From positions 1 through 64,000 of the forward strand of contig NZ_NPEV01000015.1 of assembly GCF_003258835.1 (NCBI RefSeq): 64,000 bases of DNA, read 5' to 3'. Numbering within the stretch: position 1 is the first letter of the stretch; each line of letters starts with the position of its first letter. The notes beneath the pieces are model-generated. The model was not told the DNA's origin, did no database searches, and saw nothing but the letters and a program-made list of their open reading frames with translations. This DNA is from Rhodobium orientis (GTDB taxonomy: Bacteria; Pseudomonadota; Alphaproteobacteria; Rhizobiales; Rhodobiaceae). The translations under genes and the position numbers were made by a program. Shown piece after piece: positions 8,458-29,172 of the stretch.

Positions 8458-8483
8458 GATCCGTCATGCGTCATGCGCAGGCG

Positions 8484-10781: not shown

Positions 10782-11524
10782 GTGATTTGCCCCGTTGATG
10801 TGACAAATGCCGTTCACATTCCACTTTTGAATGAGTGTAGTTGTGAACGACGACGGGTTGCGCATTTGCTTGCGCGAGCGGGACGGAGGCTAGAAGAGGT
10901 TTTGCGGAGCTGTCTTTGTCTTTAGTCAAATCCGGAAATGCTGTTTTCCGCCGCCAGCTCCGGTTCTCTGCGTTTCCTCCGATTCGCTGCGTCACTTTGG
11001 CACGGATGCAATATCAGGTAAATTAGAATGTGCTATCAAACTTTCTAAGATAGGGTGAATAACCTATTGAAATGCATGGTGGCATTAAAAAGCTTAAAGT
11101 AAGTAAGACGGTATGATTCAACTTTTGATCATTCTTGCGCCCCGACAGAAGGCAAACCCTGACAAACGGCCACATTGTATTTTATGAATGTATATGCGGC
11201 ACATACACCCATAACGCGAAAAGCGGGCGAGGAGCGCACGAAAAACCCGTCGGTCCTTGGCCGGAAAAAGCGCCGATTTTGCTGGAATACCGGAATGTAT
11301 ATTGTGTATTTAGGCCGTTGCCGCCGCCTGTTTGCGTATTCGGTTACCGCTTTTGAGCGCGCAAGGACACGGACATCGCCGAAGGTCGCTACGGGAGCGG
11401 GTGGCATTCCCTGCCGCCGGTCCGCATCGCTTTCCCACAAAGTCGACAGATATTGCGCATAGGAACCTGTGTTAAAACAACGGGTTCAAGCGTGTCGTGT
11501 GGTCCGGGCGAAACGCGGCCTGCC
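10782..11524. other. Intergenic region upstream of nosZ, relatively AT-rich
   Basis: This 743-bp gap must contain the nosZ promoter. It is clearly richer in A/T than its surroundings, especially 11000-11330. I looked for an FNR/NNR box (TTGAT-N4-ATCAA) on both strands and found no convincing match. An imperfect palindrome (TGATTCAA...TTGATCA) lies near 11114-11131. Short open frames here resemble nothing I know and have no good ribosome-binding sites. Confidence 0.6.
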
Positions 11525-13809: not shown

Positions 13810-14907
13810 TTGACCCAGACGGCGATCCCCTGCCTGTTCATGCGCGGCGGCACCTCGCGCGGTCTCTATTTCGACCGCGCCGACCTGCCGGCGGACCGGG
13901 AGACGTTGAGCGCCGTGCTGCTCGCCGCTCTCGGTGCCGGCCATCCGCTTTGCATCGACGGCATGGGCGGCTCGGAGTCCGTCACCACCAAGGTGGCGAT
14001 GCTGTCGCGGTCGACGAGCGAAGACACCGACGTCGACTTCTTCTTCGCCCAGATCTCCGGCAACGAGCGCCGGGTCGACTACGCGCCGACGTGCGGCAAC
14101 ATCCTCGTCGGCGTCGGCCCGGCGGCGATCGAGATGGGGCTCAAGGCGCCAAAGGGCGCGGCGACCTCCGTCGACATCCTTGCCACCAACACTGGGGCGC
14201 GCATCACCGAGGTGGTGACGACGCTGGACGGGCGGGTCGTCTATGACGGCGACACCGCGATCGCCGGCGTGCCGGGGACGGCGGCCCCGGTCCTGGTCAA
14301 GTTCCGCGGCGTCACCGGCGGCAAGACCGGCGCGATGTTCCCGACCGGGCGGACGGTCGAGGAGATCGACGGCATTCCCGTCACGCTGATCGACGTGGCG
14401 ATGCCGATGATGATTGCCCGCGCCGGGGATTTCGGCCTCACCGGCTACGAGACCAAGGCGGAGCTCGACGAGAACGCCGCCTTCTTTGCCCGCATGGAGC
14501 CGATGCGCCGGGAGGCGGGGCGGCGCATCGGCCTCGGCGACGTTGCCGGGAAGGTGGTGCCCAAGGTCGGGCTGCTGGCGCCGCCGCGCGGTGCCGCGCA
14601 TCTGTCGTCACGCTATTTCGTGCCCGATGCCTGCCACCCGAGCCACGCCGTCAGCGGCGCCATCTGCACGGCGGCCTGCCTGCTCTCGCCGGGCACCGTC
14701 GCCGAAGGCCTCGGCCCGCCGCCCCCGCCATCGCCGGCGGCGATCCGCATCGAGCATGCGATGGGGACGATGGAGGTGGTGATGGAGTATAGCCGTGATG
14801 CGGACGGCGCCCTCGTCGTGGAAGCTGCGGGCGTGATCCGCACCGCCCGCCTGATCATGCGCGGCGAGGTGATGGTGCCGCGCAGCGTCTGGGACGGGAA
14901 CCCTTAG
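13810..14907 (+). CDS. PrpF-family isomerase (4-oxalomesaconate tautomerase-like)
   Basis: A 365-residue member of the PrpF/DUF453 family, which has a diaminopimelate-epimerase fold and moves double bonds in unsaturated tricarboxylates (2-methylaconitate isomerase PrpF, 4-oxalomesaconate tautomerase GalD). Family features seen are the start PCLFMRGGTSRGLYF, the SGN block with Cys in PTCGN (TCGN active-site loop) and a GGKTGAMFPTG segment. The start is TTG at 13810 behind a GGAGG site; an upstream ATG hits a stop at once. It converges on the regulator gene with an 18-bp gap. The substrate in this locus is unknown: no prp or protocatechuate cleavage genes are nearby. Confidence 0.8.
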   Translation: MTQTAIPCLFMRGGTSRGLYFDRADLPADRETLSAVLLAALGAGHPLCIDGMGGSESVTTKVAMLSRSTSEDTDVDFFFAQISGNERRVDYAPTCGNILVGVGPAAIEMGLKAPKGAATSVDILATNTGARITEVVTTLDGRVVYDGDTAIAGVPGTAAPVLVKFRGVTGGKTGAMFPTGRTVEEIDGIPVTLIDVAMPMMIARAGDFGLTGYETKAELDENAAFFARMEPMRREAGRRIGLGDVAGKVVPKVGLLAPPRGAAHLSSRYFVPDACHPSHAVSGAICTAACLLSPGTVAEGLGPPPPPSPAAIRIEHAMGTMEVVMEYSRDADGALVVEAAGVIRTARLIMRGEVMVPRSVWDGNP

Positions 14908-14925: not shown

Positions 14926-15966
14926 TCACCGCGCCGCGGCATCGGACTGGCGGGTCGCCCGCGGGCTCTCGCCGTAGCGCGCCCGGTAGCAGCGGGAAAA
15001 CGCCGTCGCCGAGTGGAACCCCGTCGCCGCGGCGATGTCGGCGACAGGAATGCGCGTTTCGATCACGAGGCGCCGTGCGCTGTTCAGCCTCAGCGCCTGG
15101 TAGTGGGTGTGCGGGCTGACGCCGAGGGACCGCCGGAAGAGGGTCTGCAAATGCCGCGCCGTCACGCCGACCCGGCGGGCGAGTTTTGTGAGCGGCAGCG
15201 GCGTATCGATGGTCTCCTCCATCAGCGTCACCGCTTCGGCGACCCGCGCATCGATCAACCGGAGATTGCCGATGGAGGGCGTGTGTGCGGTCGCCGCCGT
15301 CGTTCCCGCCGGGTCGTAGATGAACTGCCGCGAGACCTCCAGCGCCAGCGTGTAGCCCTGGCGCTGGCGGACCAGCTCCAGCATCAGGTCCAGCGTCGGC
15401 AGCGGCCCGCCGGTGGTGATCCGCCGTCCGTCGACCACATAGCGGTCGCGCACCAGGTGAACCTCTGGAAACCGCCGCTCGAACGCCTCGAAGTCCTCCC
15501 AATGCGTGGTCGCCCGCCGCCCGTTAAGGAGACCGGATGCCGCCAGCAGCCAGCCACCCGTCTCCGCGCCGACGAGCGCGCTGCGATGCCGTGCCGCCGT
15601 TGCAAGCTGCCGGCGCAGCGTCGCCGTCGCCTTGGCCTCCCATCCGTAGCTGGCAACGACGACCAGGGCGGCGTCGCCGTCCGCCGGATCGAAGCGGCCG
15701 TCGACGGGGATCGGCAATCCGCTCGCCGTCGGCACCTGTTCGCCGTCGGAACTGAGGAAGCGCCAGCGATAGAGCTGCTGGCCGGCGAGCCGGTTGGCCG
15801 CCCTGAGCGGCTCGATGACCGCGGCGACAAGGATCAGCGTTGCCTCCGGCAACACCAGGATGTCGAGATCGAGCGGATCGTCCCCGCCCGCCGAAAGCAC
15901 GGTGTCGAACACGCCAATGTGCCCCGATTGTTCCGAAAACGGCAGAATTTGTTCTGAAAATATCAT
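14926..15966 (-). CDS. GlxA/CdhR-type AraC-family regulator (DJ-1/PfpI plus HTH)
   Basis: A 346-residue regulator with an N-terminal class I amidotransferase-like (DJ-1/PfpI) domain, including the [24 protein letters not shown] stretch around the elbow position, and a C-terminal AraC helix-turn-helix pair (about 235-340). Proteins of this layout control carnitine and glycine betaine catabolism (CdhR, GbdR) in other bacteria, and here it is divergent from a carnitine operon. The ATG at 15966 is the longest start, but its first residues [11 protein letters not shown] are encoded by a DNA direct repeat. A GTG at 15912 would give a more usual N-terminus and leave that repeat intergenic. Confidence 0.85.
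15928..15960. promoter_or_regulatory. Candidate operator: two direct repeats 21 bp apart
   Basis: TTGTTCCGAAAA (15928-15939) and TTGTTCTGAAAA (15949-15960) match in 11 of 12 bases with a period of exactly 21 bp, two helical turns. This is the usual geometry for an AraC-family dimer. They lie between the regulator and the divergent BKACE-carnitine genes. Binding by the adjacent regulator is inferred. Confidence 0.5.
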
Positions 15967-16062
15967 GCATGCCGTGCCGGCGCGATGTCAGTCTCGCCGG
16001 AAACCAGACTGCGCCCGCCGCCGTCGCCCGGCGACGCCAACGAACAACGAAAAAGGAAAGCC

Positions 16063-16965
16063 ATGCCGCTCGCCATGAACCGGGAGGTCTTCATCACCTG
16101 TGCCGTCACCGGCGCCGGCGACACCACGGCCAGATCCGACAAGGTGCCCGTCACCCCGAAGGAGATCGCGGCGGCCGGCATCGAGGCGGCAAGGGCCGGG
16201 GCGGCCGTCGTCCACTGCCATGTCCGCGACCCGCGGACCGGCGCCGCGGCGCGCGACCCGGCGCTCTACCGCGAGGTGGTCGACCGCATCCGCTCCGCCG
16301 ATATCGACGTCGTCATCAACCTGACGGCCGGCATGGGCGGCGACCTCGTGCTCGGCGGCGTGGAAACCCCTCTACCGCTCGCCGAGGCCGGCACCGACAT
16401 GGCCGGCGCCACCGAGCGCCTCGCCCACATACGCGACTGCCTGCCGGAGATATGCACCCTCGATTGCGGCACCATGAACTTCAGCGTCGGCGACTACATC
16501 ATGGCCAACACGCCCGACATGCTGCGCGAAATGGGCCGACAGATGACGGCACTCGGCGTTAGGCCCGAAATCGAGGCCTTCGACACCGGCCATCTCTGGT
16601 TCGCCAGGCAGCTCGCCGACGAGGGCATCATCGAGGATCCGGTCCTCGTCCAGCTCTGCATGGGCGTTCCCTGGGGTGCTCCCGACGATCTCAACACGTT
16701 CCTGGCGATGGTCAACAACCTGCCCGAAAGCTGGACGTTTTCGGCCTTTTCCATCGGCCGCAACGCGCTCGCCTATCCCGCCGCGGCCGTTCTGGCCGGC
16801 GGCAATGTCCGGGTCGGGCTGGAGGACAACATCTACCTCTCCAAGGGCGTCTTTGCCTCCAACGGCCAATTGGTCGAAAAGGCCGTTCAGGTGGTGGAGG
16901 GCATGGGCGCGGCGATCGTCGGCCCGGACGAGGTGCGCAAGCGCCTCAAGCTGACGAAGCGGTAG
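16063..16965 (+). CDS. BKACE (DUF849) enzyme, probable 3-dehydrocarnitine cleavage enzyme
   Basis: A 300-residue beta-keto acid cleavage enzyme. The family is a TIM barrel with one Zn2+; the His-x-His ligand pair is seen at residues 51/53 (VHCHVRDP), and the EAFDTGHLW segment is typical. BKACE enzymes transfer a unit from a beta-keto acid to acetyl-CoA. The immediate downstream carnitine dehydrogenase makes 3-dehydrocarnitine the expected substrate, giving betainyl-CoA and acetoacetate, as CdhC does in pseudomonads. The ATG at 16063 has an AAGGAAA site 5 bases upstream. It is the first gene of the operon and 9 bp from the next. Confidence 0.85.
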
Positions 16966-16974
16966 GGCGCCCCC

Positions 16975-18462
16975 ATGCACCGGATAAAAAAGGCCGCCTG
17001 CATCGGCGGCGGCGTCATCGGCGGCGGCTGGGCCGCCCGCTTCCTGCTTTCCGGCCACGACGTCGCCGTCTATGACCCGCACCCGGAATGCAAACGTCTG
17101 GTCGAGACGGTGCTGGCCAACGCCGCCCGTGCCTATGGCCGGCTGACCATGGCGCCGCTGCCGAAGCCCGGTACGCTGACCTTCGCGGCATCGCTTCAAG
17201 AGGCGGTCGCCGATACCCAGTGGGTGCAGGAAAGCGTGCCGGAGCGGCTTGACCTTAAGCAACGCGTGCTCGCCGAGATCGACGCCGCCGCGCCGGAAGG
17301 CGCGATCATCGGCTCGTCGACATCGGGCCTCCTTCCGAGCGACCTGCAGCGGGACATGCGGCGCCCGGAGCGCTTCTTCGTCGCTCACCCCTTCAACCCG
17401 GTCTACCTGGTGCCGCTGGTCGAACTGGTCGGCGGCAAGAAGACCAGCCCCGAGGCCATCGCCCGCGCGGAAAAACTGCTTGCCGAAATCGGCATGAAGG
17501 GCGTTGCCATCGAGCACGAGATCGAGGCCTTCGTCGCCGACCGGCTGATGGAGGCGCTCTGGCGCGAGGCCCTGTGGCTGGTCAATGACGGCGTCGCGAC
17601 GGTCACCGAGATCGACGACATCATGCGCTACGGCTTCGGGCTCCGCTGGGCCCAGATGGGCCTCTTCCAGACCTACCGCATCGCCGGCGGCGAGGCCGGC
17701 ATGCGCCACTTCCTGCACCAGTTCGGCCCAGCCCTGAAATGGCCGTGGACCAAGCTGATGGACGTGCCGGACCTGACCGAAGACCTGATCAACCGGATTG
17801 CCGACCAGAGCGACGCGCAGGCCGGGGTCCTCACCATCCGCGATCTGGAGCGCATCCGCGACGACAACCTCGTCGCCATCCTGCAGGCCCTGAAGGCCGG
17901 CAATGACGGCGCCGGCTGGGGCGCCGGCGCGCTCTTGAAGGATTTCGAGGCGCGGCTGCAGGCCGAAGCCCCGGCGCCCGAGGTCGATCTGTCCGGGCCC
18001 TTGCGGCTGGTGGAGACCACCGTCGGCCCGGCCTGGATCGACTACAACGGGCACATGACCGAGCACCGCTATTTGCAGCTCTTCGGCGACACCACCGACG
18101 CGCTTCTGCGCCTCATCGGCGTCGATGCCGACTACGTGGCAAAGGGCGCCAGCTACTACACGGTCGAGACCCATATCCGCCATCTCGGCGAGGCAAAGCT
18201 CGGGGAAAGGCTCCACACCACCTGCCAGGTGGTCTCAGCCGACGACAAGCGGCTGCACGTCTTTCATACGATCCGGAATACGGAAAGTGCGCAGATCGTT
18301 GCAACAGCCGAGCAGATGCTGCTCCACGTCGACACGGAAGCAGGGAAGAGCACACCGGCACCACGCACGGTCCTCGACCGGCTGGAGCCGATCGTCCGCG
18401 CCCACGCGGCGCTGGAGGAGCCCGACGGCTTCGGGCGAAAGGTCGGAGAGGGAAGAGAATGA
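16975..18462 (+). CDS. lcdH: Fused L-carnitine dehydrogenase / betainyl-CoA thioesterase
   Basis: A 495-residue two-domain protein. Residues 1 to about 320 are an L-carnitine dehydrogenase of the 3-hydroxyacyl-CoA dehydrogenase superfamily: NAD site IGGGVIGGGWAARF, then STSGLLPSDL and HPFNPVYLVPLVELV. Residues about 345-485 are a hotdog thioesterase with the IDYNGHMTEHRYLQLF motif. Carnitine is oxidised to 3-dehydrocarnitine with NAD+, and after BKACE cleavage the second domain hydrolyses betainyl-CoA to glycine betaine. In pseudomonads these are two genes (cdhA, cdhB); the fused form is known from rhizobia. Length and both active regions look intact. Confidence 0.92.
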   Translation: MHRIKKAACIGGGVIGGGWAARFLLSGHDVAVYDPHPECKRLVETVLANAARAYGRLTMAPLPKPGTLTFAASLQEAVADTQWVQESVPERLDLKQRVLAEIDAAAPEGAIIGSSTSGLLPSDLQRDMRRPERFFVAHPFNPVYLVPLVELVGGKKTSPEAIARAEKLLAEIGMKGVAIEHEIEAFVADRLMEALWREALWLVNDGVATVTEIDDIMRYGFGLRWAQMGLFQTYRIAGGEAGMRHFLHQFGPALKWPWTKLMDVPDLTEDLINRIADQSDAQAGVLTIRDLERIRDDNLVAILQALKAGNDGAGWGAGALLKDFEARLQAEAPAPEVDLSGPLRLVETTVGPAWIDYNGHMTEHRYLQLFGDTTDALLRLIGVDADYVAKGASYYTVETHIRHLGEAKLGERLHTTCQVVSADDKRLHVFHTIRNTESAQIVATAEQMLLHVDTEAGKSTPAPRTVLDRLEPIVRAHAALEEPDGFGRKVGEGRE

Positions 18463-18630
18463 CGGCGCATTCCTGCCGCGTCGCCGGGGAACGACCGCTC
18501 GCGGTCACCGGATGATTGACGGAGAGGCACATGCTGTCGTGCAATTGCCAGTATCCGTCGAGCCCTGCACAACGACAGGTCGGCAACGTCGCCAACCTTG
18601 GCGCCACACCCGAACCGGATCGGAGACGCC

Positions 18631-20181
18631 ATGACCGGACGCGAGGAAAGGCAGAGGGGGCGCCGCCGCAACCGCGGCGACGGCACGACGAAGCCGGTCC
18701 TCGAGCAGATGCCGTGGCGCCAGCCCACCTACCAGGACCCGCCCATCGAGCCGCTCGACGCTGAGGGGGTTGAGAAGATCCACCTCACCGCCATGCGGAT
18801 CCTCGAAGAAATCGGCATCGACTTCCTCAACGAGGAGGCGAAAGACGTCCTGAAGAAAGCCGGCGTCGACGTCGATCCGGACAGCGACCGCGTCCGCATG
18901 GACCGCGACTTCGTCATGGAGCGCGTGCGAAGGGCGCCGGAACAGTTCACGATCACGCCGCGCAATCCCGAGCGCAGCATCGTCTGGGGCGGCCGCCACA
19001 CCACCTTCGGCAACGTTTCGAGCCCGCCCAACGTCACCGACCTCGACCATGGACGCCGGACGGGGACCCGGGAGGATTTCCGCGCCCTCCTGAAGCTCTC
19101 CCACGCCTTCAACTGCATCCATTTCGTCGGCGGCTATCCGGTCGAGCCCATCGACATCCACCCGTCCGTGCGCCACCTCGATGCCATCCTCGACAAGCTG
19201 GTCCTCACCGACAAGGTGATCCACGCCTATTGCCTCGGCACGGAGCGGGTCGAGGACGCGATGGAAATGGTGCGCATCGCCGCCGGCCTCACCCACGAGG
19301 AGTTCGATGCCCGGCCACGCATGTTCACCAACATAAATTCCTCCTCGCCGCTGAAACACGACTGGCCGATGCTGGATGGTGCCATGCGCATGGCCCGGCG
19401 CGGCCAGCCGGTGCTCGTCACCCCGTTCACCCTGTCGGGTGCAATGGCGCCGGTGACCCTTGCCGGCGCCATCGCCCAGCAGACGGCGGAGGCGCTCGCC
19501 GCCATCGCGCTTCTTCAGGAGATCAATCCGGGCGTGCCGGTCGGTTACGGCGCCTTCACCTCCAATGTGGACATGAAGACGGGCGCGCCGGCCTTCGGGA
19601 CGCCGGAATTCATGCGCGCCACCCAGATGTCCGGCCAGATGGCCCGCTTCTACGGCCTGCCGTTCCGCTCCACCGGCGCCAATGCGGCGAACTTCCCCGA
19701 CGGCCAGGCGGTCTGGGAGAGCATGAACTCGCTCTTCGGCGCCACCACCGCCCATGCCAACGTCATCTACCATGCCGCCGGCTGGCTGGAAGGCGGGCTG
19801 CTCGCCAGCATGGAAAAGTTCGTCATGGACTGCGAGGTGCTGCAGCAGATCGCCTACTACCACCAGCCGGTGCCGGTCGACGACGACAGCCTTGCCTTTG
19901 CGGCCATCGCCGAGGTCGGCCCGAACGGCCACTTCTTCGGCGCCGCCCACACCATGGAGCGCTACCGCACCGCCTATTACGCGCCGTTCCTGTCCGACTG
20001 GAGCAACTTCGAGACCTGGATGGAGCATGGCGGGCGCACGGTCCACGAGCGCGCCAACACGCTCTGGAAGAAGATCGTCGCCGCCTATGAGCCGCCGCCG
20101 ATGGATGAGGCGATCCGCGAGGAACTGGAAGCCTTCGTCGCCAGGCGCAAGGAAGAGGGCGGCGCGCCGACGGATTTCTGA
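18631..20181 (+). CDS. MttB-family (non-pyrrolysine) methylamine/betaine methyltransferase
   Basis: A 516-residue TIM-barrel methyltransferase of the trimethylamine methyltransferase family. There is no in-frame TAG, so it lacks pyrrolysine and belongs with the MtgB/MtcB/MtpB-type homologues, which demethylate glycine betaine, carnitine or proline betaine with a corrinoid acceptor. The ATG at 18631 has GGAG six bases upstream; a TTG at 18598 is in frame but less likely. A basic leader (REERQRGRRRNRGDG) precedes the folded part. Glycine betaine, the product of the upstream enzymes, is the obvious candidate substrate. No corrinoid protein or reactivase gene is in the window, so the methyl acceptor must come from elsewhere. 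Confidence 0.85.
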   Translation: MTGREERQRGRRRNRGDGTTKPVLEQMPWRQPTYQDPPIEPLDAEGVEKIHLTAMRILEEIGIDFLNEEAKDVLKKAGVDVDPDSDRVRMDRDFVMERVRRAPEQFTITPRNPERSIVWGGRHTTFGNVSSPPNVTDLDHGRRTGTREDFRALLKLSHAFNCIHFVGGYPVEPIDIHPSVRHLDAILDKLVLTDKVIHAYCLGTERVEDAMEMVRIAAGLTHEEFDARPRMFTNINSSSPLKHDWPMLDGAMRMARRGQPVLVTPFTLSGAMAPVTLAGAIAQQTAEALAAIALLQEINPGVPVGYGAFTSNVDMKTGAPAFGTPEFMRATQMSGQMARFYGLPFRSTGANAANFPDGQAVWESMNSLFGATTAHANVIYHAAGWLEGGLLASMEKFVMDCEVLQQIAYYHQPVPVDDDSLAFAAIAEVGPNGHFFGAAHTMERYRTAYYAPFLSDWSNFETWMEHGGRTVHERANTLWKKIVAAYEPPPMDEAIREELEAFVARRKEEGGAPTDF

Positions 20182-20287
20182 CCGGCCACACTTGCCCCCT
20201 GCCTCTTTTTGATGCGCGCCGCTTTTTTGGCTAAGGTCGCAAGGCCCGGACTGTCAAACCACCGGTTCGGCCGCGAAAGGCCGCCAG

Positions 20288-21475
20288 ATGACGACCGAAA
20301 ACCCGCTCGATGCCTTCGCTACCCAGCCCTTCCGGCTCGGCCCCATTCCCGAGCTCGTCTTCGGAGCGGGCGAGGCGAAAAGGATCGCCGACCATGCCGC
20401 CGCCTTGCGGGCGTCGGGCGATGAGGCGCCCATCCTCCTCATCGCCGATGCGACCCTTGCCGAAATGGGCGGCACCGCGCCCGTTGCCGAGGCGCTGGGC
20501 GCGGCCGGCGCCACCATCGAGATCCATGCCGCGATCGCCGGCGAGCCCAAGGCGACCGACATCGACGCCGCCGCCGAACGCGTCCGCATGACCGGTCCCG
20601 GCCTCGTCGTCGTCATGGGCGGCGGCTCGGCCATCGATGCGGCCAAGATCGCCGCCGCCGTCGCCGCGTCCAACGAGGGCGTGCTCCACTACAAGCTCGG
20701 CGAAAACCCGCTACCGCGCCGGCAGATGCGGATGATTGCCATCCCGACGACGGCCGGCACCGGAGCGGAGGTGACCGCGACCGCCGTCTTTGCCGGCCCG
20801 GACGGCAAGAAGCTTTGGGTCCATGACGCGGCGGCAAAGCCCGACGTCGTCATCCTCGATCCGGAGACGACCGTTACCCTGCCGTCGACGCTGACGGCCT
20901 GGACCGGGCTCGACGCCTTCGTCCATGCGCTGGAAGCCTGCACCAACCGGCGCCGCTTCGCCGCCGCTGAGGTCCATTCCTTCCTTGCCCTGCAACTGAT
21001 CGCCGGGGCGCTGGAGACGGCGGTCAAGACCCCGACCGACCTTGCCGCCCGCGGCCGGATGCTGCTCGGCGCCGCCTATGCCGGCATCGGCATCGACGCC
21101 TGCGGCACCGCGATTGCCCATACCATTTCCCATGCGCTCTCCGGCCTCGGCCCCATCCACCACGGCTTTGCAACGGCTCTCGGCCTCGACGCCACGCTCG
21201 CCTGGTCGGTCGAAGAGGATGACGGCCGCTTCGCCCGCGCCGCCCGCGCCTGTGGCCTGGAAAATGCCGCCGCGCTGCCGGACTGGTTCTCCGGCCTGGT
21301 GGCCTCCTGCGACGTCGAAAAGCGCCTGCCGGAGGCGTTCAAGGACAGGACGGCCGAGGACCTTGCCGCCGAGATGCGCCTCCCGGCCAATGCGCCGATG
21401 CGCGAGGCGACGGCCCGCACCGTCACGGACGCCGACATCGACGCCTTTGCCGCGCGCGTCATGGCCCTCGCCTGA
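20288..21475 (+). CDS. Iron-containing (group III) alcohol dehydrogenase
   Basis: A 395-residue Fe-ADH. The NAD-binding GGGSAIDAAK motif is at residues 111-120. The metal ligands can be placed at Asp209, His213, His278 and His292, with spacing like that of FucO. Family members oxidise short alcohols, reduce aldehydes or act on hydroxy acids. The ATG at 20288 is 106 bp after the MttB gene on the same strand. Its substrate is unknown. Given its place between an MttB homologue and an enolase-superfamily enzyme, it may act on a product of quaternary amine or acid-sugar breakdown, but the sequence does not show this. Confidence 0.85.
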   Translation: MTTENPLDAFATQPFRLGPIPELVFGAGEAKRIADHAAALRASGDEAPILLIADATLAEMGGTAPVAEALGAAGATIEIHAAIAGEPKATDIDAAAERVRMTGPGLVVVMGGGSAIDAAKIAAAVAASNEGVLHYKLGENPLPRRQMRMIAIPTTAGTGAEVTATAVFAGPDGKKLWVHDAAAKPDVVILDPETTVTLPSTLTAWTGLDAFVHALEACTNRRRFAAAEVHSFLALQLIAGALETAVKTPTDLAARGRMLLGAAYAGIGIDACGTAIAHTISHALSGLGPIHHGFATALGLDATLAWSVEEDDGRFARAARACGLENAAALPDWFSGLVASCDVEKRLPEAFKDRTAEDLAAEMRLPANAPMREATARTVTDADIDAFAARVMALA

Positions 21476-21504
21476 GCGATGTCCCCTGCACCGGAACACC
21501 GCCC

Positions 21505-22632
21505 GTGAGCCGCATCGCGTCCATCGCCGTTTCCCACCACCGCCTGCCCCTCGATCCACCGTTCAAGGCGAGCTGGGACGGCCGGCCGCGCACCCATTTC
21601 GACGCCACCATCGTCCGCGTCCGCGACGACGAGGGGAGGGAAGGCGTCGGCTCCGGCGACCTGATGCTCGGCTTTGCCGGCCACGAGGACTTGTTTCTCG
21701 GCGAGGACGCGCGCCGCGTCGAACGCCACTACGAGGTGCTGTCGCACATCCAGTTCCACTACGGCCGCTGCTGGCCGCTCGATCTCGCCCTGTGGGACCT
21801 ATTCGGCAAGATCACTGGCGAGCCTGTCTGGCGGCTCTTGGGTGGCCGCGCCGACCGGGTTCGGCTCTATGCCTCGTCCGGCGTCCTGCGCGAGACCGCC
21901 GAAATGGTCGAGGCGGCGGAACGTTTTGCCGGCGAAGGATTCCCGGCCATGAAGATCCGGTTTTCCTCAAGCGCCGGCGGTCGCGACGGCTGGCGCGCCG
22001 ATCTTAAGGTGCTGGAAGCGATCCGCGCCCGCCTCGGCGATAAGCTGGACCTGATGGTCGACTGCAACCAGGGTTGGCGCATGCCCTCGGACACGGCCGC
22101 GCCCTGGACCTTCAAGGACGCGCTGGCCGTCGCCCGCGAGTTGGAGCGCCTCGGCGTCTATTGGATGGAGGAGCCTTTGCACCGCGCCGACCGCGCCGGC
22201 ATGCGGGCGCTCCGCGAGGCGACATCGGTGCGCATCGCCGGCGGCGAGATGACCCGCGAGCTCCACGAATTCCGTGACCTTATTGCCGACAGGGCCCTCG
22301 ACATCCTGCAGCCCGACGTCGCCCTCGTCGGCGGCATCACGGGCCTGAGGCGCGTCGCGCTGATGGCCCGTGAGCACAACATTGCCTTCACGCCCCATAG
22401 CTGGACCAACGGCATCGGGGTGCTGGCCAACGCCCATCTGACGGCCGGCATCGGCGAGGCGCCGTGGCTGGAATTCCCCTACGATCCGCCGGAATGGTCC
22501 CTGGCGCGCCGCGACTTCCCGCTGCGCGCGTCGCTCGCCCACGCCGATGGCTGGCTGCTGTTGGGCGAGGTGCCGGGCCTCGGGATCGCGCTCGATGAGG
22601 ACCGCCTTGCCGCGACCCGGTTGGGACCGTGA
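21505..22632 (+). CDS. Mandelate racemase/muconate lactonizing enzyme family protein
   Basis: A 375-residue enolase-superfamily enzyme. It has a K150-x-R152 element at the end of the second barrel strand, metal ligands Asp186 (VDCNQ), Glu222 (EEP) and Glu248 (GGE), and an Asp271/His298 dyad (QPD, PHSW) as in the mandelate racemase subgroup. Such enzymes abstract a proton alpha to a carboxylate, giving racemisation or dehydration of acid sugars, or epimerisation of amino-acid betaines (HpbD). The start is GTG at 21505, 29 bp after the Fe-ADH. The substrate is not predictable. Carnitine racemisation is unlikely because its chiral carbon is beta to the carboxylate. Confidence 0.85.
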   Translation: MSRIASIAVSHHRLPLDPPFKASWDGRPRTHFDATIVRVRDDEGREGVGSGDLMLGFAGHEDLFLGEDARRVERHYEVLSHIQFHYGRCWPLDLALWDLFGKITGEPVWRLLGGRADRVRLYASSGVLRETAEMVEAAERFAGEGFPAMKIRFSSSAGGRDGWRADLKVLEAIRARLGDKLDLMVDCNQGWRMPSDTAAPWTFKDALAVARELERLGVYWMEEPLHRADRAGMRALREATSVRIAGGEMTRELHEFRDLIADRALDILQPDVALVGGITGLRRVALMAREHNIAFTPHSWTNGIGVLANAHLTAGIGEAPWLEFPYDPPEWSLARRDFPLRASLAHADGWLLLGEVPGLGIALDEDRLAATRLGP

Positions 22633-23234
22633 TCGGCCGCGATGCCCGGCAGACCCGGAACCGCATGCGGTATTACATGCCGAACGTTTCGTTCCATTGC
22701 ATATGAGGGGCGAACGACAGTATCCGAACCAGGCGTTCCGGTAAGTGCGGAGCCTCTGTAAGTCATTCTGCTGTATTTCCTTTTCCCGGAAGCAGCGATC
22801 CGGATTTTTCGAGCGATATCCGGATAGACGGTTGCGCGCCATGCTCTCGGCGCACTATCCTCGGGCGAGCGCGTTTCAAGAACGACACCGCGCCGGGAGG
22901 ACTTAAGCTAGCACCGACAGGGCCTGAAGCCGCCAAATTACGATATTTGGACGATGGGTGTCGCTTTCCCGCGGACCGCGTACGGTCCCCACGGCTTCCA
23001 TTGTCCCGCCCCGACAGAACGAAAAATCACGCGGCCGGAATGAAACCGATCCGCGCAACGATATCCCGGGGACGAGGGGAACAGCACTGACGAGCGCATC
23101 TTCGTCATGGCGTTTTGAGACGATCGACGCGTGCCGTCCCGCATCCGAGATGGCGCGCCAACGAGACGAGCGCCGGCTGACAACGGCCGGCGCCAAAACG
23201 ACACCGCACAGCGAGTGATTAAGGGAGTGCAGCA
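22633..23234. other. 602-bp gap upstream of the ABC transporter operon
   Basis: No open frame here resembles a gene. It holds several small palindromes: ATCCGGAT twice, 20 bp apart (22798-22805 and 22818-22825); CCAAAT-N6-ATTTGG (22933-22950); GGACCG-N4-CGGTCC (22973-22988); and a GCGCCGGC hairpin (23170-23193). A GGGAG ribosome-binding site precedes the ATG at 23235. It probably carries the transporter promoter and a long leader. Confidence 0.55.
22798..22825. promoter_or_regulatory. Two copies of palindrome ATCCGGAT spaced 20 bp
   Basis: The self-complementary octamer ATCCGGAT occurs at 22798-22805 and 22818-22825, same face of the helix, about 410 bp before the substrate-binding protein gene. 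A protein-binding role is only inferred; a chance pair in GC-rich DNA is possible. Confidence 0.3.
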
Positions 23235-24890
23235 ATGACCGAACACAACGAGACCATCAACGGCAAGCCGCTGAAGCCCCAGATCCGGGAGTGGGCGGAA
23301 GCCGCGCGAAAGGGCCTGGTCGACCGCCGCGAATTCCTCGCCATGGCGACCGCCTTCGGCGCCACCACCGCCACCGCCTACGGCCTTCTCGGCATTGCCG
23401 TGCCGGGCGAAGCGCGGGCCCAGGAGGCCAAGAAGGGCGGCATCCTGAAAGTCTCCATGAATGTCCGCCGCGTCGACGATCCGCGCATCTTCGACTGGTC
23501 GGAAATGGCCAATGTCGCCCGCCAGGTCGTCGAGCCGCTGGTGCTCTACACCCACGACTTCACCTTCAAGCCCTGGCTCCTTGAAAGCTGGGACATCAAC
23601 GACGACGCCACCGAATATGTGCTGAATGTGCGAAAGGGCGTGACCTGGAACAACGGCGACGATTTCACTGCGGAGGACGTCGCCTTCAACCTCAATCGCT
23701 GGTGCGAAAAGAACGTCGAAGGCAACTCCATGGCCGGCCGCATGTCCTCCCTTATCGACGAGGAGACCGGCAAGGCCCGCGACAGCGCGATCGAGATCGT
23801 CGACGACCACACCGTCAAGCTGACCCTGCCCAAGCCCGACATCACCATCATCCCGGGCATGGTCGACTACCCGGCGCTGGTCGTGCACCGCGACTTCGAA
23901 AAGATGGGTGGCAAGCTGTCGGAGAACCCGATCGGCACCGGCGCCTTCGAGCTGGTCGCCCTGGAGGTCGGCGTGCGCGCTGAGGTCAAGCGCCGCGAGA
24001 ACGGCTCCTGGTGGGGCGGCGAGGCGCTGCTCGACGGCGTCGAATGGACCGATTTCGGCACGGATCCGGCGGCCGAGGTCGCCGCCTTCGAGGCCGAGGA
24101 AGTGCAGATGAACTACGAGTCGACGGCCGACTTCGTGGAGGTCTTCGACGCTCTCGGCCTCAAAAAGTCTGAGGCGGTGACGTCGGCAACCGTGGTCGCG
24201 CGCACCAACGTCGCCAACAAGCCCTATGACGACGAGCGGGTGCGCCGCGCCCTGCAGCTTGCCGTCGACAACGAGGTGGTGCTGCAGCTCGGCATTAGCG
24301 GCGCCGGCACGGTGGCGGAAAACCACCATGTCTGCCCGATCCATCCGGAATATTTCAAGCTGCCGCCGATCAAGCGCGACATCGAGGCGGCCAAGAAGCT
24401 GATGGAAGAGGCCGGCCAGATGGATTTCGAGCACGAGCTCATCTCCATCGACGACGACTATCGCCGCAACACCACAGACGCGATTGCCGCGCAGCTCCGC
24501 GAGGCCGGCTTCAAGATCAAGCGGACCGTCATTCCCGGCTCCTCGTTCTGGAACAACTGGACCAAATACCCCTATTCCACGACGAACTGGAACATGCGCC
24601 CGCTCGGCGTCCAGGTGCTGGCGCTGGGCTACCGCAGCGGCGGCGCCTGGAACGAGTCGGCCTGGTCCAACAAGGAGTTCGATGCGGCGCTGGAAGAGGC
24701 GCTGGCGACCCCGGACGTGGAAAAGCGCAAGGCGATGATGGAGAACGTGGAGAAGATCCTGCAGGACTCCGGCGTCATCATCCAGCCCTACTGGCGTTCG
24801 CTCTTCAAGCACATGACCGACGCCGTGAAGGGCGACGCCATGCACCCGGCCTACGAGCAGCACTTCCACGACGTCTGGCTCGACGAATAG
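23235..24890 (+). CDS. ABC transporter substrate-binding protein, peptide/opine type (SBP_bac_5)
   Basis: A 551-residue extracellular solute-binding protein of the DppA/OppA class. The N-terminus has a long n-region and a twin-arginine-like stretch [14 protein letters not shown], then a hydrophobic core and an AxA-type site (GEARAQ), suggesting Tat export. Class landmarks are a [22 protein letters not shown] segment and conserved blocks such as [12 protein letters not shown]. It is the first gene of a transporter operon and starts 602 bp after the catabolic genes on the same strand. The ligand is unknown; a catabolic substrate of the neighbouring enzymes is plausible. Two hairpins follow the stop. 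Confidence 0.88.
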
Positions 24891-24951: not shown

Positions 24952-24966
24952 GAGGTCCGGCTCTAA

Positions 24967-25902
24967 ATGCTCGGTTTCATTCTGCGGCGTCTCGGCGTCA
25001 TGCTGGCGACGATGATCGCCCTCACGTTCATCGTCTTCTCGCTGGTCAACCTGGAGCCCAACCTGCGCAAGCTGGCGCTGGAACAGGGCAACATCCGGAT
25101 GTCCGATGAGGCCATCGAGAACTGGCTGGAAAAGAACGGCTACCGGCGCCCGTTCCTGTTGCGCTACGGCGAATGGCTCGGCAATTCGCTGACCGGCGAG
25201 TTTGGCCGCTCGACCCGCTTTCGCCGCCCGGTCAACGACGTCCTGCCCGAGCGCCTCGGCTATACCGGCATCCTCGCCTTCTGGGTGATGGCAACCATGG
25301 TGCCCGGCGCGCTGATCATCGGCGTCCTTGCCGGCATGCGCGAAGGCTCCAAGACGGACCGAAGTCTGTCCATCTTCTCCATCATCACGACGGCAACGCC
25401 CGAATACGTCTCCGGCATCATCTTCACCGTGATCTTCGCCACCTGGCTCGGCTGGTTCAAGGGCGTCGCCAAGGCCGGCGACATCGATTTCTGGAACTTC
25501 ACCCTGCCGGTGATGACCATGGCCCTCTACGGAATGGGCTACATCGCCCGCATGACCCGCGCCTCCATGGCCGAGGTCATGACCTCGCAATATATCCGCA
25601 CGGCCCGCCTCAAGGGCCTTTCCTTCCCCGTCATTGTCCTGCGCCATGCCTTGAGGAATGCGCTGATCGCCCCGTTCACGGTCATCATGCTGCAGTTCCC
25701 CTGGCTGCTGACCGGCGTTGTCATCGTCGAGAAGCTGTTCAACTACAAGGGCTTCGGATGGGTCCTCGTGGAGGCCGCCGACAACAACGACATCGACCTC
25801 CTGCTCGCCTGCTCGCTCGTCTCCGTCGCCGTCGTCATCATCACCCAGTTGATCTCCGATGTTGGCTACGCCTTTCTCAACCCGCGCATCCGCGTGCAGT
25901 AG
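24967..25902 (+). CDS. ABC transporter permease, DppB type
   Basis: A 311-residue inner-membrane permease with six predicted transmembrane segments and the N-terminal MLGFILRRLGVMLATM start usual for DppB/OppB proteins. The cytoplasmic EAA loop (RTARLKGLSFPVIVLRHALRNAL) that contacts the ATPase is intact. It follows the binding protein by 76 bp and precedes the second permease by 11 bp, all on one strand. It pairs with the DppC-type subunit to form the pore. Confidence 0.9.
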   Translation: MLGFILRRLGVMLATMIALTFIVFSLVNLEPNLRKLALEQGNIRMSDEAIENWLEKNGYRRPFLLRYGEWLGNSLTGEFGRSTRFRRPVNDVLPERLGYTGILAFWVMATMVPGALIIGVLAGMREGSKTDRSLSIFSIITTATPEYVSGIIFTVIFATWLGWFKGVAKAGDIDFWNFTLPVMTMALYGMGYIARMTRASMAEVMTSQYIRTARLKGLSFPVIVLRHALRNALIAPFTVIMLQFPWLLTGVVIVEKLFNYKGFGWVLVEAADNNDIDLLLACSLVSVAVVIITQLISDVGYAFLNPRIRVQ

Positions 25903-25913
25903 GGAGCCGACAG

Positions 25914-27065
25914 ATGACCGAGATCGGTTCCCTGGAAATCCTCATCGGCGCCCTGTTCCGCTTCTGGCCGGTCTGGGCTTGCCTTGCGGTGATCCTCGGC
26001 ACCAGCTTCTATTTTCGCGGCCGCCTCGGGCTCTACGGCCATCTGTTCGATTCCGGCGTCGGCTTCGTCGGCCTGACGCTGGTCCTGTTCTGGCTCCTGA
26101 CCGCGCTCTTTGCCGATGTCATCGCCACCTTCCCGCCGTTGGAACAGTTCGCGCTTTTAAAGCGCGCCGTGCCCGGCACCGTGGAGGCGGAAACCGGCAT
26201 TCCGCTCTATTTCGGCGCCGACAATCTCGGCCGCGATCTCTTCAGCCGCATGGTGCACGGCTCGCGCTTCGTGCTGGCGATCGCCCCGGCGGCGACCTTC
26301 GTTGCCTATGTGGTCGGCATCACGCTCGGCCTTCCCGCCGGCTATTTCGGCGGCCGCATCGATGCCGTCCTCTCCTTCATCGCCAATCTGGTGCTCGCCT
26401 TCCCCGTGATCCTCCTGTTCTACCTGCTGGTGACGCCCGGCGTGCGGGAAACGGCGATCCCCGTGTTCATGGCCGGTCTTTTCTTCATCTTCCCGATCAT
26501 CTTCCTCGGCATCCTGTTCCATTCCCGCTATGCGGCGCGGCCGCAGATATTCTGGTCGCTGATGGCGGTGACCCTCGTCGTCGGCGGCTGGGTCTATGCC
26601 GGCCTCGTCTTCGATGCCGATCCGCTCGGCGTCTTCTCGCTGGCGCCGAACGAGCTCAACATCTTCGCCGCCGTGGTCTTCGCCTCCTCGCCCGGCGTCT
26701 TTCGCATCGTGCGCGGCCTGACCATGGATATCCGCACCCGGGATTACGTTGCCGCCGCCCAGACCCGCGGCGAGCGCCCGGCCTACATTATGCTCTGGGA
26801 GATCCTGCCGAACGCTAGAGGCCCGCTCATCGTCGATGCCTGCCTGCGCATCGGCTACACCACGATCCTGCTCGGCACTCTCGGCTTCTTCGGTCTCGGC
26901 CTGGCGCCGGAATCCCCCGACTGGGGCTCCATGATCAACCAGACCCGCGGCTTCATCCGCATCGTGCCGACGATCGTGCTGCCGCAGACGATCGCCATCG
27001 CTACGCTGGTGCTCGGCCTCAACCTCCTGGCCGACGGGCTGCGCGAGCAGTCGCTGAAAGACTGA
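25914..27065 (+). CDS. ABC transporter permease, DppC type, with an enlarged membrane section
   Basis: A 383-residue permease, about 80-90 residues longer than usual DppC/OppC. The N-terminal part ends with FGADNLGRDLFSRMVHGSR, the DppC hallmark, and the EAA loop (AAAQTRGERPAYIMLWEILPNARGPLIV) is intact. The extra length lies before the EAA loop, about residues 180-255, as additional hydrophobic segments around FIFPIIFLGILFHSRYAARPQ and VVGGWVYAGLVFDAD. The ATG at 25914 has AGGGAG upstream; the frame is open further but that overlaps the first permease. It works with the DppB-type subunit and the fused ATPase. Confidence 0.88.
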   Translation: MTEIGSLEILIGALFRFWPVWACLAVILGTSFYFRGRLGLYGHLFDSGVGFVGLTLVLFWLLTALFADVIATFPPLEQFALLKRAVPGTVEAETGIPLYFGADNLGRDLFSRMVHGSRFVLAIAPAATFVAYVVGITLGLPAGYFGGRIDAVLSFIANLVLAFPVILLFYLLVTPGVRETAIPVFMAGLFFIFPIIFLGILFHSRYAARPQIFWSLMAVTLVVGGWVYAGLVFDADPLGVFSLAPNELNIFAAVVFASSPGVFRIVRGLTMDIRTRDYVAAAQTRGERPAYIMLWEILPNARGPLIVDACLRIGYTTILLGTLGFFGLGLAPESPDWGSMINQTRGFIRIVPTIVLPQTIAIATLVLGLNLLADGLREQSLKD

Positions 27066-27075
27066 GGAACGGATC

Positions 27076-29172
27076 ATGAGCGACGAAACAACGACCTCAC
27101 CGGAGCCGATCCTCGACATCAAGGGCCTGTCGATCTCCTACTTCACCCGCGCCGTGGAGATCGACGCGGTGAAGGACTTTTCCTGCCGCGTCATGCCCGG
27201 CGAGGCGATGGGCCTTGTCGGCGAATCCGGCTGCGGCAAGTCCACGGTGGCCCTCGCCATCATGCGCGACCTCGGCGTCAATGGCGGCATCGTCGACGGC
27301 TCCATGACCTTCATGGGCCGCGACCTCGTCAACATGTCGGACGGGGAATTGAGGAAAATCCGCGGCTCCAAGATCGCCATGGTCTACCAGGAGCCGATGG
27401 CGAGCCTCAATCCGGCCATGCGCATCGGCCGCCAGCTCGTCGAGGTGCCGCTGGAACATGAGGACGTCTCCAAGGCCGAGGCCGAGGAGCGCGCCATCGC
27501 CATGCTGGAGGCCGTGCGCCTGCCGGACCCCAGGCGCATCATGCGCGCCTTCCCGCACCAGATCTCCGGCGGCCAGCAGCAGCGCATCGTCATCGCCATG
27601 GCGTTGTTGTCGAAGCCCTCGCTCCTGATCCTCGACGAGCCGACGACGGCGCTCGACGTCACGGTCGAGGCCGGCATCATCGAGCTGATCGCCGAACTGG
27701 CCGACAAGTTCGGCACCTCGATCCTCTTCATCTCCCACAATCTCGGCCTCATCCTGGAGACCTGCGACAAGATCACGGTGATGTATTCCGGCGAGGCGGT
27801 CGAGGTCGGCACCTGCAAGGAGATGTTCAACAACATCCGCCACCCCTATATGCAGGGGCTCCTGCGTTCCCTGCCGCTTCCCGGCGCCAACAAGAACACA
27901 CGGCCGCTGGTCGCCATTCCCGGGCAACTGCCGTTGCCGACGGAACGCCCGCCGGGCTGCCGTTTCGGTCCGCGCTGCGAGCACTTCCGTCCCGGCATCT
28001 GCGACGTCGGCCCGATCCCGATGCGCCCGGTGCCGGGCGGCGAAGGCCACACGAGCCGCTGCGTGCGTTTTGAAGAGATCGACTGGGACGCGCCGCCGGA
28101 AAACGCCGTCCAGCAGGACGCCGTTGAGGCCGGCGGCCCGGTCCTCGTCGTCAACGACCTGAAGAAGCACTACGAGGTCTCCGCCAACAAGATGTTCGGC
28201 GGCGGCGGGCAGCGCGTCGTCAAGGCGGTGGAGGAGATCGAGTTGACGGCGCTGGAAGCCGAGACGGTCGCCATCGTCGGCGAATCCGGCTGCGGCAAGT
28301 CCACCTTCGCCAAGGTGCTCCTGGGGCTTGAGACCGCGACCGACGGCTCGGTCCGGCTCGACGAGACCGACATCGGCAGCCTTGAGGTGGAGAACCGCGA
28401 TGCCGGCACGCTGAGCTCGATCCAGATGGTGTTCCAGAACCCCTTCGACACCCTCAATCCGAGCCACGCGGTCGGCGCGCAGATCATCCGCGTCCTGGAG
28501 AAATTCAAGGTCGGCAAGAGCCAGGCGGAACGCCGCGAGCGCATGCTCGACCTCCTCGATCTCGTCAAGCTGCCGCGCGAATTCGCTGAGCGCATGCCGC
28601 GCCAGCTCTCCGGCGGCCAGAAGCAGCGGATCGGCATCGCCCGCGCCTTTGCCGGCCGGCCCCGCGTCGTCGTCGCCGACGAGCCGGTCTCGGCCCTCGA
28701 CGTCTCGGTCCAGGCCGCCGTCACCGAGCTCCTGATGGACATCCAGAGGAGTTCGCGCACGACGCTCCTCTTCATCAGCCACGATCTCTCCGTCGTGCGC
28801 TATCTCGCCGACCGGGTGGTGGTCATGTATCTCGGCCACATCATGGAGGAGGGGCTGACCGACGAGGTCTTCGCCCCGCCCTACCACCCCTATACCGAGG
28901 CGCTGCTGTCGGCCGTGCCGATCGCCGATACCGCGATCGAGAAGAAGCGCATCGTGCTGGAAGGCGAGATCCCGTCCGCCGTCAATCTGCCGTCCGGCTG
29001 TCCGTTCCAGACCCGTTGCCAGCACAAGCACCGCATCCCCGACAATCTCTGCGAGACGGAAAAGCCGGCCTTGCGCGATCTCGGGGCCGGTCACCTCATC
29101 CGCTGCCACCTGCCGGACGACTTCCTGAAGACCATGGAGTCCGTCATCGTCCAGGTCGATGCCGCCCAATAA
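27076..29172 (+). CDS. Fused double ABC ATPase, DppD-DppF type
   Basis: A 698-residue protein with two complete nucleotide-binding domains. Domain 1 has Walker A GESGCGKST (residues 49-57), signature ISGGQQQR and Walker B LLILDEPTTALD. It is followed by an oligopeptide-transporter C-terminal region with cysteines (PPGCRFGPRCEHF...). Domain 2 has Walker A again near residue 402, LSGGQKQR, VVVADEPVSALD and a second C-terminal Cys region (SGCPFQTRCQHKH). Peptide-type importers normally use two separate ATPases; here one gene supplies both. It ends the transporter operon, 11 bp after the second permease. Confidence 0.92.
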   Translation: MSDETTTSPEPILDIKGLSISYFTRAVEIDAVKDFSCRVMPGEAMGLVGESGCGKSTVALAIMRDLGVNGGIVDGSMTFMGRDLVNMSDGELRKIRGSKIAMVYQEPMASLNPAMRIGRQLVEVPLEHEDVSKAEAEERAIAMLEAVRLPDPRRIMRAFPHQISGGQQQRIVIAMALLSKPSLLILDEPTTALDVTVEAGIIELIAELADKFGTSILFISHNLGLILETCDKITVMYSGEAVEVGTCKEMFNNIRHPYMQGLLRSLPLPGANKNTRPLVAIPGQLPLPTERPPGCRFGPRCEHFRPGICDVGPIPMRPVPGGEGHTSRCVRFEEIDWDAPPENAVQQDAVEAGGPVLVVNDLKKHYEVSANKMFGGGGQRVVKAVEEIELTALEAETVAIVGESGCGKSTFAKVLLGLETATDGSVRLDETDIGSLEVENRDAGTLSSIQMVFQNPFDTLNPSHAVGAQIIRVLEKFKVGKSQAERRERMLDLLDLVKLPREFAERMPRQLSGGQKQRIGIARAFAGRPRVVVADEPVSALDVSVQAAVTELLMDIQRSSRTTLLFISHDLSVVRYLADRVVVMYLGHIMEEGLTDEVFAPPYHPYTEALLSAVPIADTAIEKKRIVLEGEIPSAVNLPSGCPFQTRCQHKHRIPDNLCETEKPALRDLGAGHLIRCHLPDDFLKTMESVIVQVDAAQ

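Follow-up and report, generated by a model that had tools for sequence, protein, structure and literature searches.

Two functional units may adjoin at a carnitine locus of Rhodobium orientis: the carnitine route and a module headed by an MttB homologue

On the plus strand of Rhodobium orientis, genes for carnitine degradation are directly followed by a gene of the MttB family. Does this neighbour carry carnitine breakdown on into one-carbon metabolism? The first-pass annotation of the window, as the whole analysed stretch of 64,000 nucleotides is called here, proposed that the MttB homologue removes a methyl group from glycine betaine (MtgB-like) or acts on carnitine itself (MtcB-like). It also held that such a link in a respiring bacterium was not known to be described. 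This does not stand, as the link is already in print for the respiring alphaproteobacterium R. pomeroyi. During growth on the N-osmolytes glycine betaine, choline and carnitine, CdhABC, MtgB, MtgC and MtgD are increased, and an mtgC mutant was tested on glycine betaine, according to the accessible part of that report (PMC12478193, PNAS 2025). Its MtgBCD system resembles the set described below, with MttB-family methyltransferases together with MtgC, MtgD, RamA and DUF1638. A further likeness is found in the anaerobic acetogen E. limosum, although its lifestyle differs from that of the window organism. There the MttB paralogues MtcB, MtyB and MtpB use differing quaternary amines with one shared corrinoid protein (PMC8604678, available text).

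Results

The arrangement of a BKACE gene, a fused carnitine dehydrogenase/thioesterase gene and an MttB homologue in one plus-strand run was confirmed, both in coordinates and in families (Table 1). The fusion protein reached 859 bits against the NCBIfam model NF005716 'carnitine 3-dehydrogenase', for a cut-off of 592. A BKACE gene 9 nt upstream of a dehydrogenase with a fused thioesterase is the composition of the BKACE-type carnitine route. With the BKACE family score of 323 bits and the 4HBT_2 domain of the fusion, the earlier assignment of the first two genes to the formation of glycine betaine is upheld. No equivalog model exceeded its own cut-off for the BKACE in the NCBIfam profile search, and dehydrocarnitine is taken as its probable substrate because the carnitine dehydrogenase adjoins. 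The divergent regulator scored 212 bits against the GbdR model NF052371, under the cut-off of 480.

The sequences thus support the known route from carnitine to glycine betaine. The dehydrogenase would oxidize carnitine to 3-dehydrocarnitine, the BKACE would convert 3-dehydrocarnitine and acetyl-CoA into betainyl-CoA and acetoacetate, and the thioesterase domain would release glycine betaine from betainyl-CoA. The carnitine route of S. meliloti likewise has a dehydrogenase with both activities, SM2011_c01638 acting on carnitine and betainyl-CoA (PMC12482172, available text).

Table 1. Features of the plus-strand run and of the divergent regulator gene. Counts refer to the 40 neighbourhoods of MttB orthologues described in the text.
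Feature	Position	Strand	Evidence
AraC/GlxA-type regulator, GbdR/CdhR-like	14926..15966	-	PF12833 and DJ-1_PfpI; divergent from carnitine genes
BKACE, probable dehydrocarnitine:acetyl-CoA cleavage enzyme	16063..16965	+	PF05853, 323 bits
Carnitine 3-dehydrogenase fused to thioesterase	16975..18462	+	PF02737, PF00725, PF13279 (3HCDH_N, 3HCDH, 4HBT_2)
Non-pyrrolysine MttB-superfamily methyltransferase, clade W	18631..20181	+	PF06253, 704 bits; AF2 model; tree
Iron-containing alcohol dehydrogenase	20288..21475	+	PF00465; MttB-linked module; 13/40
Enolase-superfamily (mandelate racemase-like) enzyme	21505..22632	+	PF13378, 200 bits; MttB-linked module; 14/40
Family-5 solute-binding protein, Opp-type importer	23235..24890	+	PF00496; 18/40
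OppB-type permease	24967..25902	+	PF00528; 15/40
OppC-type permease	25938..27065 (stretch scanned)	+	PF00528, 52 bits; 15/40
Double ATPase OppDF	27076..29172	+	two ABC_tran and two oligo_HPY stretches; 15/40

The MttB homologue of the window covers positions 2–500 of the 500 of the PF06253 profile, for which the cut-off is 25 bits. The listed frame opens at a TTG at 18598, and an ATG preceded by GGAGA is found at 18631. As the frame contains no internal stop, and no in-frame amber codon, the protein is a non-pyrrolysine MttB homologue (COG5598/PF06253). Its AF2 model (pLDDT 81) gave 2QNE, 9YCE, 4YYC and 7XCL as top Foldseek matches. The best of these, MtgB of D. hafniense (2QNE, 9YCE) and the S. 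meliloti protein 4YYC, superimpose with TM scores of 0.85–0.86 at 38–39% identity, so that the modelled protein is predicted to have the MtgB/MttB fold.

A betaine site consisting of Tyr94, Asn199, Arg309 and His345 has been predicted for MtgB by docking (PMC6855144, available text). In the alignment, three of these four residues are kept in the window MttB, as in the D. hafniense and S. meliloti proteins: Asn199, Arg309 and His345. The cage tyrosine, Tyr94, is replaced by Ser130, and Phe98 by Asn134. The argument from Tyr94 leans on docking performed in a different enzyme.

A tree was computed from 169 rows, of which 167 are distinct; each main clade holds one duplicate, and distinct sequences were counted. 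The window MttB belongs to a clade of 123 sequences with a support of 1.0, termed clade W, which comprises members from the window's taxonomic order and from Rhodobacteraceae, and a few metagenome-assembled genomes labelled Gammaproteobacteria. The Asn, Arg and His of the predicted site are each present in 123 of 123 members, and Tyr94 is lost in all. The sister clade (33 sequences, support 0.98) contains 4YYC, MtgB1 of R. pomeroyi and a second MttB of R. orientis, encoded on contig C165; Tyr94 is retained in 30 of its 33 sequences. The window MttB therefore stands apart from the group of 4YYC and R. pomeroyi MtgB1, and D. hafniense MtgB falls outside both clades. In R. pomeroyi, the window MttB has an orthologue at 2.942 Mb (64% identity) that differs from both MtgB1 and MtgB2. 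It is a third gene beside those for SPO2108 and SPO2134, the two members of PF06253 that the accessible part of PMC12478193 lists as increased; both of these belong to other clades. No substrate assignment for the clade W branch was found in the accessible literature.

The corrinoid partners are encoded outside the window. Contig C165 carries mtgC, mtgD, ramA and DUF1638 genes with the second MttB gene on one strand within about 6.4 kb (L003, 10088–16440), which amounts to an MtgBCD system. A genome devoid of a corrinoid partner was thereby rejected as a possibility. In S. meliloti, mtgBCD genes are similarly clustered with reductive modules (PMC12478193, available text). The C165 MttB has all four residues of the predicted betaine site and scored 658 bits against 4YYC and 407 bits against D. 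hafniense MtgB, compared with 355 and 337 bits for the window MttB. From these sequences, it is the better candidate for the glycine betaine (MtgB-like) step.

Matches were present in 77 genomes, and conservation of the neighbourhood was examined in 40 of them, taken mostly from the top of the match list and some from lower down, all 40 MttB proteins belonging to clade W. Presence was scored by tblastn above chosen bit thresholds, and absence weighs less in the five neighbourhoods on short contigs. In none of the 39 neighbourhoods of the same taxonomic order outside the genus is the MttB orthologue flanked by carnitine genes. Such flanking is confined to the genus mate G001, where the gene order is identical and the proteins are 91–95% identical; in a second genus mate (G002) the only MttB shares 42% identity. 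Adjacency as a sign of a shared pathway was rejected, as within the order it is kept only in the genus.

Other partners recur. A gene for a dimethylglycine-dehydrogenase-like (DMGDH-like) enzyme lies within 2 kb downstream of the orthologue in 23 of the 40 neighbourhoods; in R. orientis it is on contig C106. A BHMT-like gene is near the orthologue in 16, and MtgC, MtgD and RamA genes are near it in 8, 5 and 4, respectively. The plus-strand run continues beyond the MttB gene through the iron-containing alcohol dehydrogenase, the mandelate racemase-like enzyme and an Opp-type importer to position 29172, an extension that the earlier annotation of this run does not mention. A complete Opp set was found in 15 neighbourhoods, and the alcohol dehydrogenase and the mandelate racemase-like enzyme recur at similar frequencies (Table 1).

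The mandelate racemase-like enzyme is 62–71% identical to its counterparts outside the genus. A named function was rejected for it, as none of the NCBIfam cut-offs was reached; with sugar-acid dehydratases and putative racemases as its nearest PDB sequences, it does not reveal the substrate. Matches of the alcohol dehydrogenase and of the solute-binding protein to PDB sequences were too general to point to a substrate. The literature search found no paper joining MttB with a mandelate racemase and DMGDH.

A Rieske-type route through GbcA was rejected, since the only PF00848 ring-hydroxylase of the genome reaches 95 of the 670 bits required for GbcA. Among PDB sequences it comes closest to carnitine monooxygenase (126 bits), and it may therefore serve another Rieske-type role. 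The genome encodes a Sec-type nitrous-oxide reductase. Taken together, the corrinoid-to-folate parts, a sole ring-hydroxylase that is not GbcA by the curated model and the nitrous-oxide reductase make it plausible that carnitine breakdown feeds one-carbon metabolism in a respiring bacterium. This part of the original proposal survives; a role of the adjacent MttB in the glycine betaine step is not supported.

Discussion

With moderate confidence, the locus is explained by two functional units lying end to end: an ordinary route from carnitine to glycine betaine (14926–18462) and a separate catabolic module (18631–29172) headed by a corrinoid-dependent demethylase of the MttB superfamily. From the gene identities, their order and conservation, the tree and the residues, we infer the reactions and the class of substrate, and also that MtgC is shared. 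The importer of the second unit would take up a carboxylated quaternary amine, probably hydroxylated and bulkier than glycine betaine. The alcohol dehydrogenase and the mandelate racemase-like enzyme would act on its carbon skeleton, and the window MttB would transfer one N-methyl group to the shared corrinoid protein MtgC encoded on C165. MtgD would pass the methyl group from MtgC to tetrahydrofolate, with RamA and the DUF1638 protein holding the cobalamin reduced, and the DMGDH-like enzyme would remove the remaining methyl groups. Glycine betaine from the first unit would most likely be demethylated by the second MttB. On this sequence evidence, carnitine methyl groups are likely to reach folate mainly via the C165 MttB, and the window MttB likely demethylates another carboxylated quaternary amine. 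Counting against separate units, both are on one strand, and a scan of the 168 nt between the fusion and MttB genes found neither a promoter-like site nor a plus-strand terminator-like site, which makes co-transcription possible.

It is unlikely, at perhaps one chance in a handful, that the window MttB itself demethylates the glycine betaine formed by the carnitine route, the C165 MttB serving another substrate. Such a role would agree with the retained Asn, Arg and His and with the position of the genes, which adjoin on one strand in two genomes of the genus. DMGDH-like enzymes are of the kind expected after betaine demethylation, and glycine betaine as the substrate would likewise fit the linkage of clade W with DMGDH-like and BHMT-like genes. 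A loose functional tie could also be read from the carnitine fusion gene, which in 12 of 45 named genomes, drawn from the best 80 of 586 confirmed MttB stretches, starts 8–13 kb upstream of the start of the orthologue on the same strand. However, when 35 more genomes were included, carnitine dehydrogenase was present in 67 of the 80 orthologue-bearing genomes and adjoined MttB only in the genus mate. Moreover, the mtgC, mtgD and ramA genes accompany the C165 MttB, which also matches proven MtgB with a higher score and has retained Tyr94. The PF06253 proteins that the accessible text lists as increased during growth on N-osmolytes do not include the R. pomeroyi counterpart of the window MttB. 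The MtgB-like assignment of the first-pass annotation is for these reasons not retained.

Demethylation of carnitine by the window MttB (MtcB-like), as a second use of carnitine beside the BKACE, is improbable. The gene adjoins the carnitine genes, the retained Arg and His fit a carboxylate, and the loss of Tyr94 may admit a longer substrate, but the carnitine genes are missing from all 39 neighbourhoods outside the genus, and of the PF06253 proteins only SPO2108 and SPO2134 are named as increased on N-osmolytes in the available part of PMC12478193.

Least probable of all, the window MttB would rely on some corrinoid protein or methyl acceptor different from MtgC/MtgD, or be no catabolic demethylase: none of the seven PF02310 places in the genome is on the window's contig (C62), contig C51 encodes a second short B12-binding protein, and orthologues among the best 80 of 586 loci, mostly from Rhodobacteraceae, often lie, as judged by eye, beside HAD-like and H-NOX-like frames and not in a catabolic cluster, but the helical-domain match of the C51 protein is weak (24.5 bits) and MtgC, MtgD and RamA genes do occur near some orthologues.

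A broader proposal can be made tentatively, at somewhat less than even chances. Clade W may consist of uncharacterised, widespread corrinoid-dependent demethylases whose substrate is a carboxylated quaternary amine other than glycine betaine and carnitine. Opp-type import, processing by the iron-containing alcohol dehydrogenase and the enolase-superfamily enzyme, and completion by a DMGDH-like oxidase would then form an undescribed methylotrophic osmolyte pathway via MtgC.

A tempting inference from gene adjacency is corrected. The link from carnitine to methyl-folate has been published and is probably present in this organism too, where it more likely runs via a different MttB, and a large branch of the MttB family with conserved gene partners of its own is brought to notice.

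Organization of the carnitine region

The genome of R. orientis comprises 5.19 Mb in 244 contigs, and the window comes from contig C62. The plus-strand run of BKACE, fused carnitine gene and MttB homologue described by the first-pass annotation was confirmed, as coordinates and models agree.

Features of the window and of other loci
Feature	Location	Strand	Evidence
Frame adjoining nitrous-oxide reductase	7680-8474		two CxxCH motifs by eye; no NCBIfam model matched at E 1e-20
Sec-type nitrous-oxide reductase	8484-10865	-	882 bits, cut-off 625
PrpF-family protein	13810-14907	+	4-oxalomesaconate tautomerase model, 427 of 440 bits
BKACE	16063-16965	+	PF05853, 323 bits
Carnitine dehydrogenase/thioesterase fusion	16975-18462	+	3HCDH_N, 3HCDH, 4HBT_2; NF005716 (carnitine 3-dehydrogenase), 859 bits, cut-off 592
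MttB homologue	18631-20181	+	PF06253, 704 bits
Ring-hydroxylase, L230	C177:2967-3533		PF00848
DddP-like protein	L052:10845-12176		DMSP lyase model NF043017, 451 of 600 bits
Fatty acid desaturase	L083:4210-5145		PF00487
Fatty acid desaturase	L049:15156-15944		PF00487
Fatty acid desaturase	L214:6113-7054		PF00487

The mttB frame contains no internal stop, and its product does not reach the curated model of pyrrolysine MttB (302 of 525 bits). A divergent GbdR-like AraC regulator, below the cut-off of its model, lies upstream, and the plus-strand run continues 3' of mttB with an Fe-ADH, an enolase-superfamily (MR/MLE) enzyme and an Opp-type importer, ending at 29172. The carnitine route itself is well supported and of an ordinary kind. 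The PrpF-family gene beside the carnitine regulator is conserved in the genus mate G001, in which about 420 nt (7226-7646 of its locus L047) separate BKACE from the fusion, versus 9 nt in the window.

The bacterium had been presumed to respire. Since its genome encodes a Sec-dependent nitrous-oxide reductase of the clade II type, which passed its model, R. orientis is taken to do so.

A second MttB homologue with corrinoid machinery

The genome contains two PF06253 genes, the second of which, on contig C165, encodes a protein 39% identical to the MttB of the window. Within 6.4 kb on the same strand are found the corrinoid protein MtgC (PF02607 and PF02310), a DUF1638 protein, the pterin-binding protein MtgD (NF005719, 403 bits, cut-off 259) and a RACo-type activase, RamA. 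This cluster resembles the clustered mtg genes of S. meliloti, as given in the accessible text of PMC12478193. Contig C170 encodes a BHMT-like MtgE (496 bits, cut-off 338), with a weak MetF-like frame (37 of 294 bits) next to it; DMGDH-like FAD/GcvT proteins are encoded there and on C106 and C190. A second short B12-binding protein, with a weak PF02607 match, is found on C51. The sole PF00848 ring-hydroxylase found in the genome was rejected as GbcA (95 of 670 bits); it reaches no curated model, and its nearest PDB sequence is a carnitine monooxygenase (126 bits).

Phylogeny and predicted substrate site

FastTree phylogenies were built with 162 and then 169 MttB rows. One clade, here called clade W, contains the MttB of the window; it comprises 124 rows, of which 123 are distinct, and has a support of 1.0 (0.995 in the smaller first tree). 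The C165 MttB groups with the S. meliloti structure 4YYC in another clade (34 rows, 33 of them distinct; support 0.98). The D. hafniense MtgB lies outside both. Docking to MtgB, in the accessible text of PMC6855144, proposes Tyr94, Asn199, Arg309 and His345 as betaine contacts and Phe353 as a fifth residue. All of the first four are present in the C165 MttB, and Tyr94 is kept in 30 of the 33 distinct sequences of its clade. In the MttB of the window, Ser130 occupies the position of Tyr94, and the other three are kept. The same holds throughout clade W: Tyr94 is replaced in 123/123 distinct sequences (Ser 88, Ala 27, Gly 7, Asn 1), with Asn, Arg and His kept in all. Phe353 is Gly in both R. orientis proteins and does not separate them. 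These residues suggest that clade W would accept a carboxylated substrate in a cage of different shape.

The AlphaFold2 model of the MttB of the window, built on 14 orthologues (pLDDT 81, pTM 0.84), best matches MtgB (2QNE, 9YCE) and 4YYC, with TM-scores of 0.85-0.86 by query length and 38-39% identity. As the stretch 383-389 beside the predicted site has a pLDDT below 50, no conclusion on the pocket is drawn from it.

Genome G346, which we take to be that of R. pomeroyi DSS-3, contains seven PF06253 genes. Two of them, at 2,243,882 and 2,267,973, are 24 kb apart; mtgC is at about 2.298 Mb, its product 81% identical to the C165 MtgC, with DUF1638 just after. Judging by spacing, these four are probably SPO2108, SPO2134, SPO2160 and SPO2162. 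The putative SPO2108 is 62% identical to 4YYC, and the putative SPO2134 belongs to a distant type, 26-29% identical to either R. orientis MttB. The orthologue of the MttB of the window (64%, at 2.942 Mb) is a third gene, distinct from both. The C165 MttB is nearest, within its clade, to a further R. pomeroyi paralogue, at 0.187 Mb, and is not one-to-one with MtgB1. The accessible text of PMC12478193 names SPO2108 and SPO2134 as the PF06253 proteins raised on N-osmolytes; its silence on the third gene is not proof of an unchanged level.

Conserved neighbours of the MttB homologue

A search at E ≤ 1e-120 through 297 genomes of the order gave a match in 77. Neighbourhoods were fetched in 40 of these, all with an MttB of clade W, and neighbours were scored by tblastn with set bit thresholds. 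Near MttB, BKACE and the carnitine fusion were each found in 1/40, that of the genus mate. A DMGDH-like gene was present in 23/40, always within 2 kb downstream on the same strand, a family-5 binding protein in 18, a complete Opp set in 15, MR/MLE in 14, Fe-ADH in 13 and a BHMT-like gene in 16. The conserved partners are therefore the genes after MttB, not those before it. Nine of the 15 Opp-set neighbourhoods also hold Fe-ADH or MR/MLE. In 13 of the 15 the importer genes read away from MttB; in the window they lie downstream of it on one strand. Another MttB, of the C165 type, occurs in 9/40, MtgC in 8, MtgD in 5 and RamA in 4. DddP-like proteins are encoded in 8/40, hinting at mixed osmolyte clusters. 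PF00487 desaturases and PF12974 phosphonate-binding-like genes are each found in 6/40.

A looser association was seen in the best 80 of 586 confirmed stretches with an orthologue (L096-L175, mostly Rhodobacteraceae, 59-71% identity): the fusion lies 8-10 kb upstream inside the fetched stretch in six. It is present in 67 of 80 genomes with an orthologue (45 from these loci and 35 further). Twelve of the 45 carry it on the same strand, with its start 8-13 kb upstream of that of MttB, as seen in the locus itself for five (L126, L131, L138, L157, L160) and by coordinates on contigs of matching length for seven (L116, L117, L119, L122, L123, L135, L166); coordinate matches at L104, L124, L141, L142, L162 and L172 did not pass this length check and were dropped from the count. 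In locus L214, the carnitine genes (PF05853; 3HCDH, 4HBT_2) come first, then a regulator-like frame and a desaturase; further frames, judged by eye to encode an EamA-like transporter, a NUDIX protein and a PleD-like regulator, lie between these and MttB. Such synteny is loose and does not amount to an operon, but the distant carnitine genes may have a functional tie to MttB.

In the same best 80 of 586, a HAD-like frame precedes MttB in 40, H-NOX-like and PAS-like frames accompany it in 33 and 39 (all named by eye), and a desaturase-like frame is present in 25. The HAD/H-NOX/PAS-like setting is odd for a catabolic demethylase.

The carnitine to one-carbon link

R. orientis is likely to have a route that leads from carnitine via glycine betaine to folate. 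The adjoining MttB had been proposed as its possible MtgB-like betaine step; the C165 MttB is a better candidate, and among the 40 neighbourhoods carnitine genes accompany the adjoining one only in the genus mate. Nor is the link new: the accessible text of PMC12478193 already describes it for a respiring alphaproteobacterium. The MttB of the window heads a separate conserved module, and this module is the part of the region worth following up.
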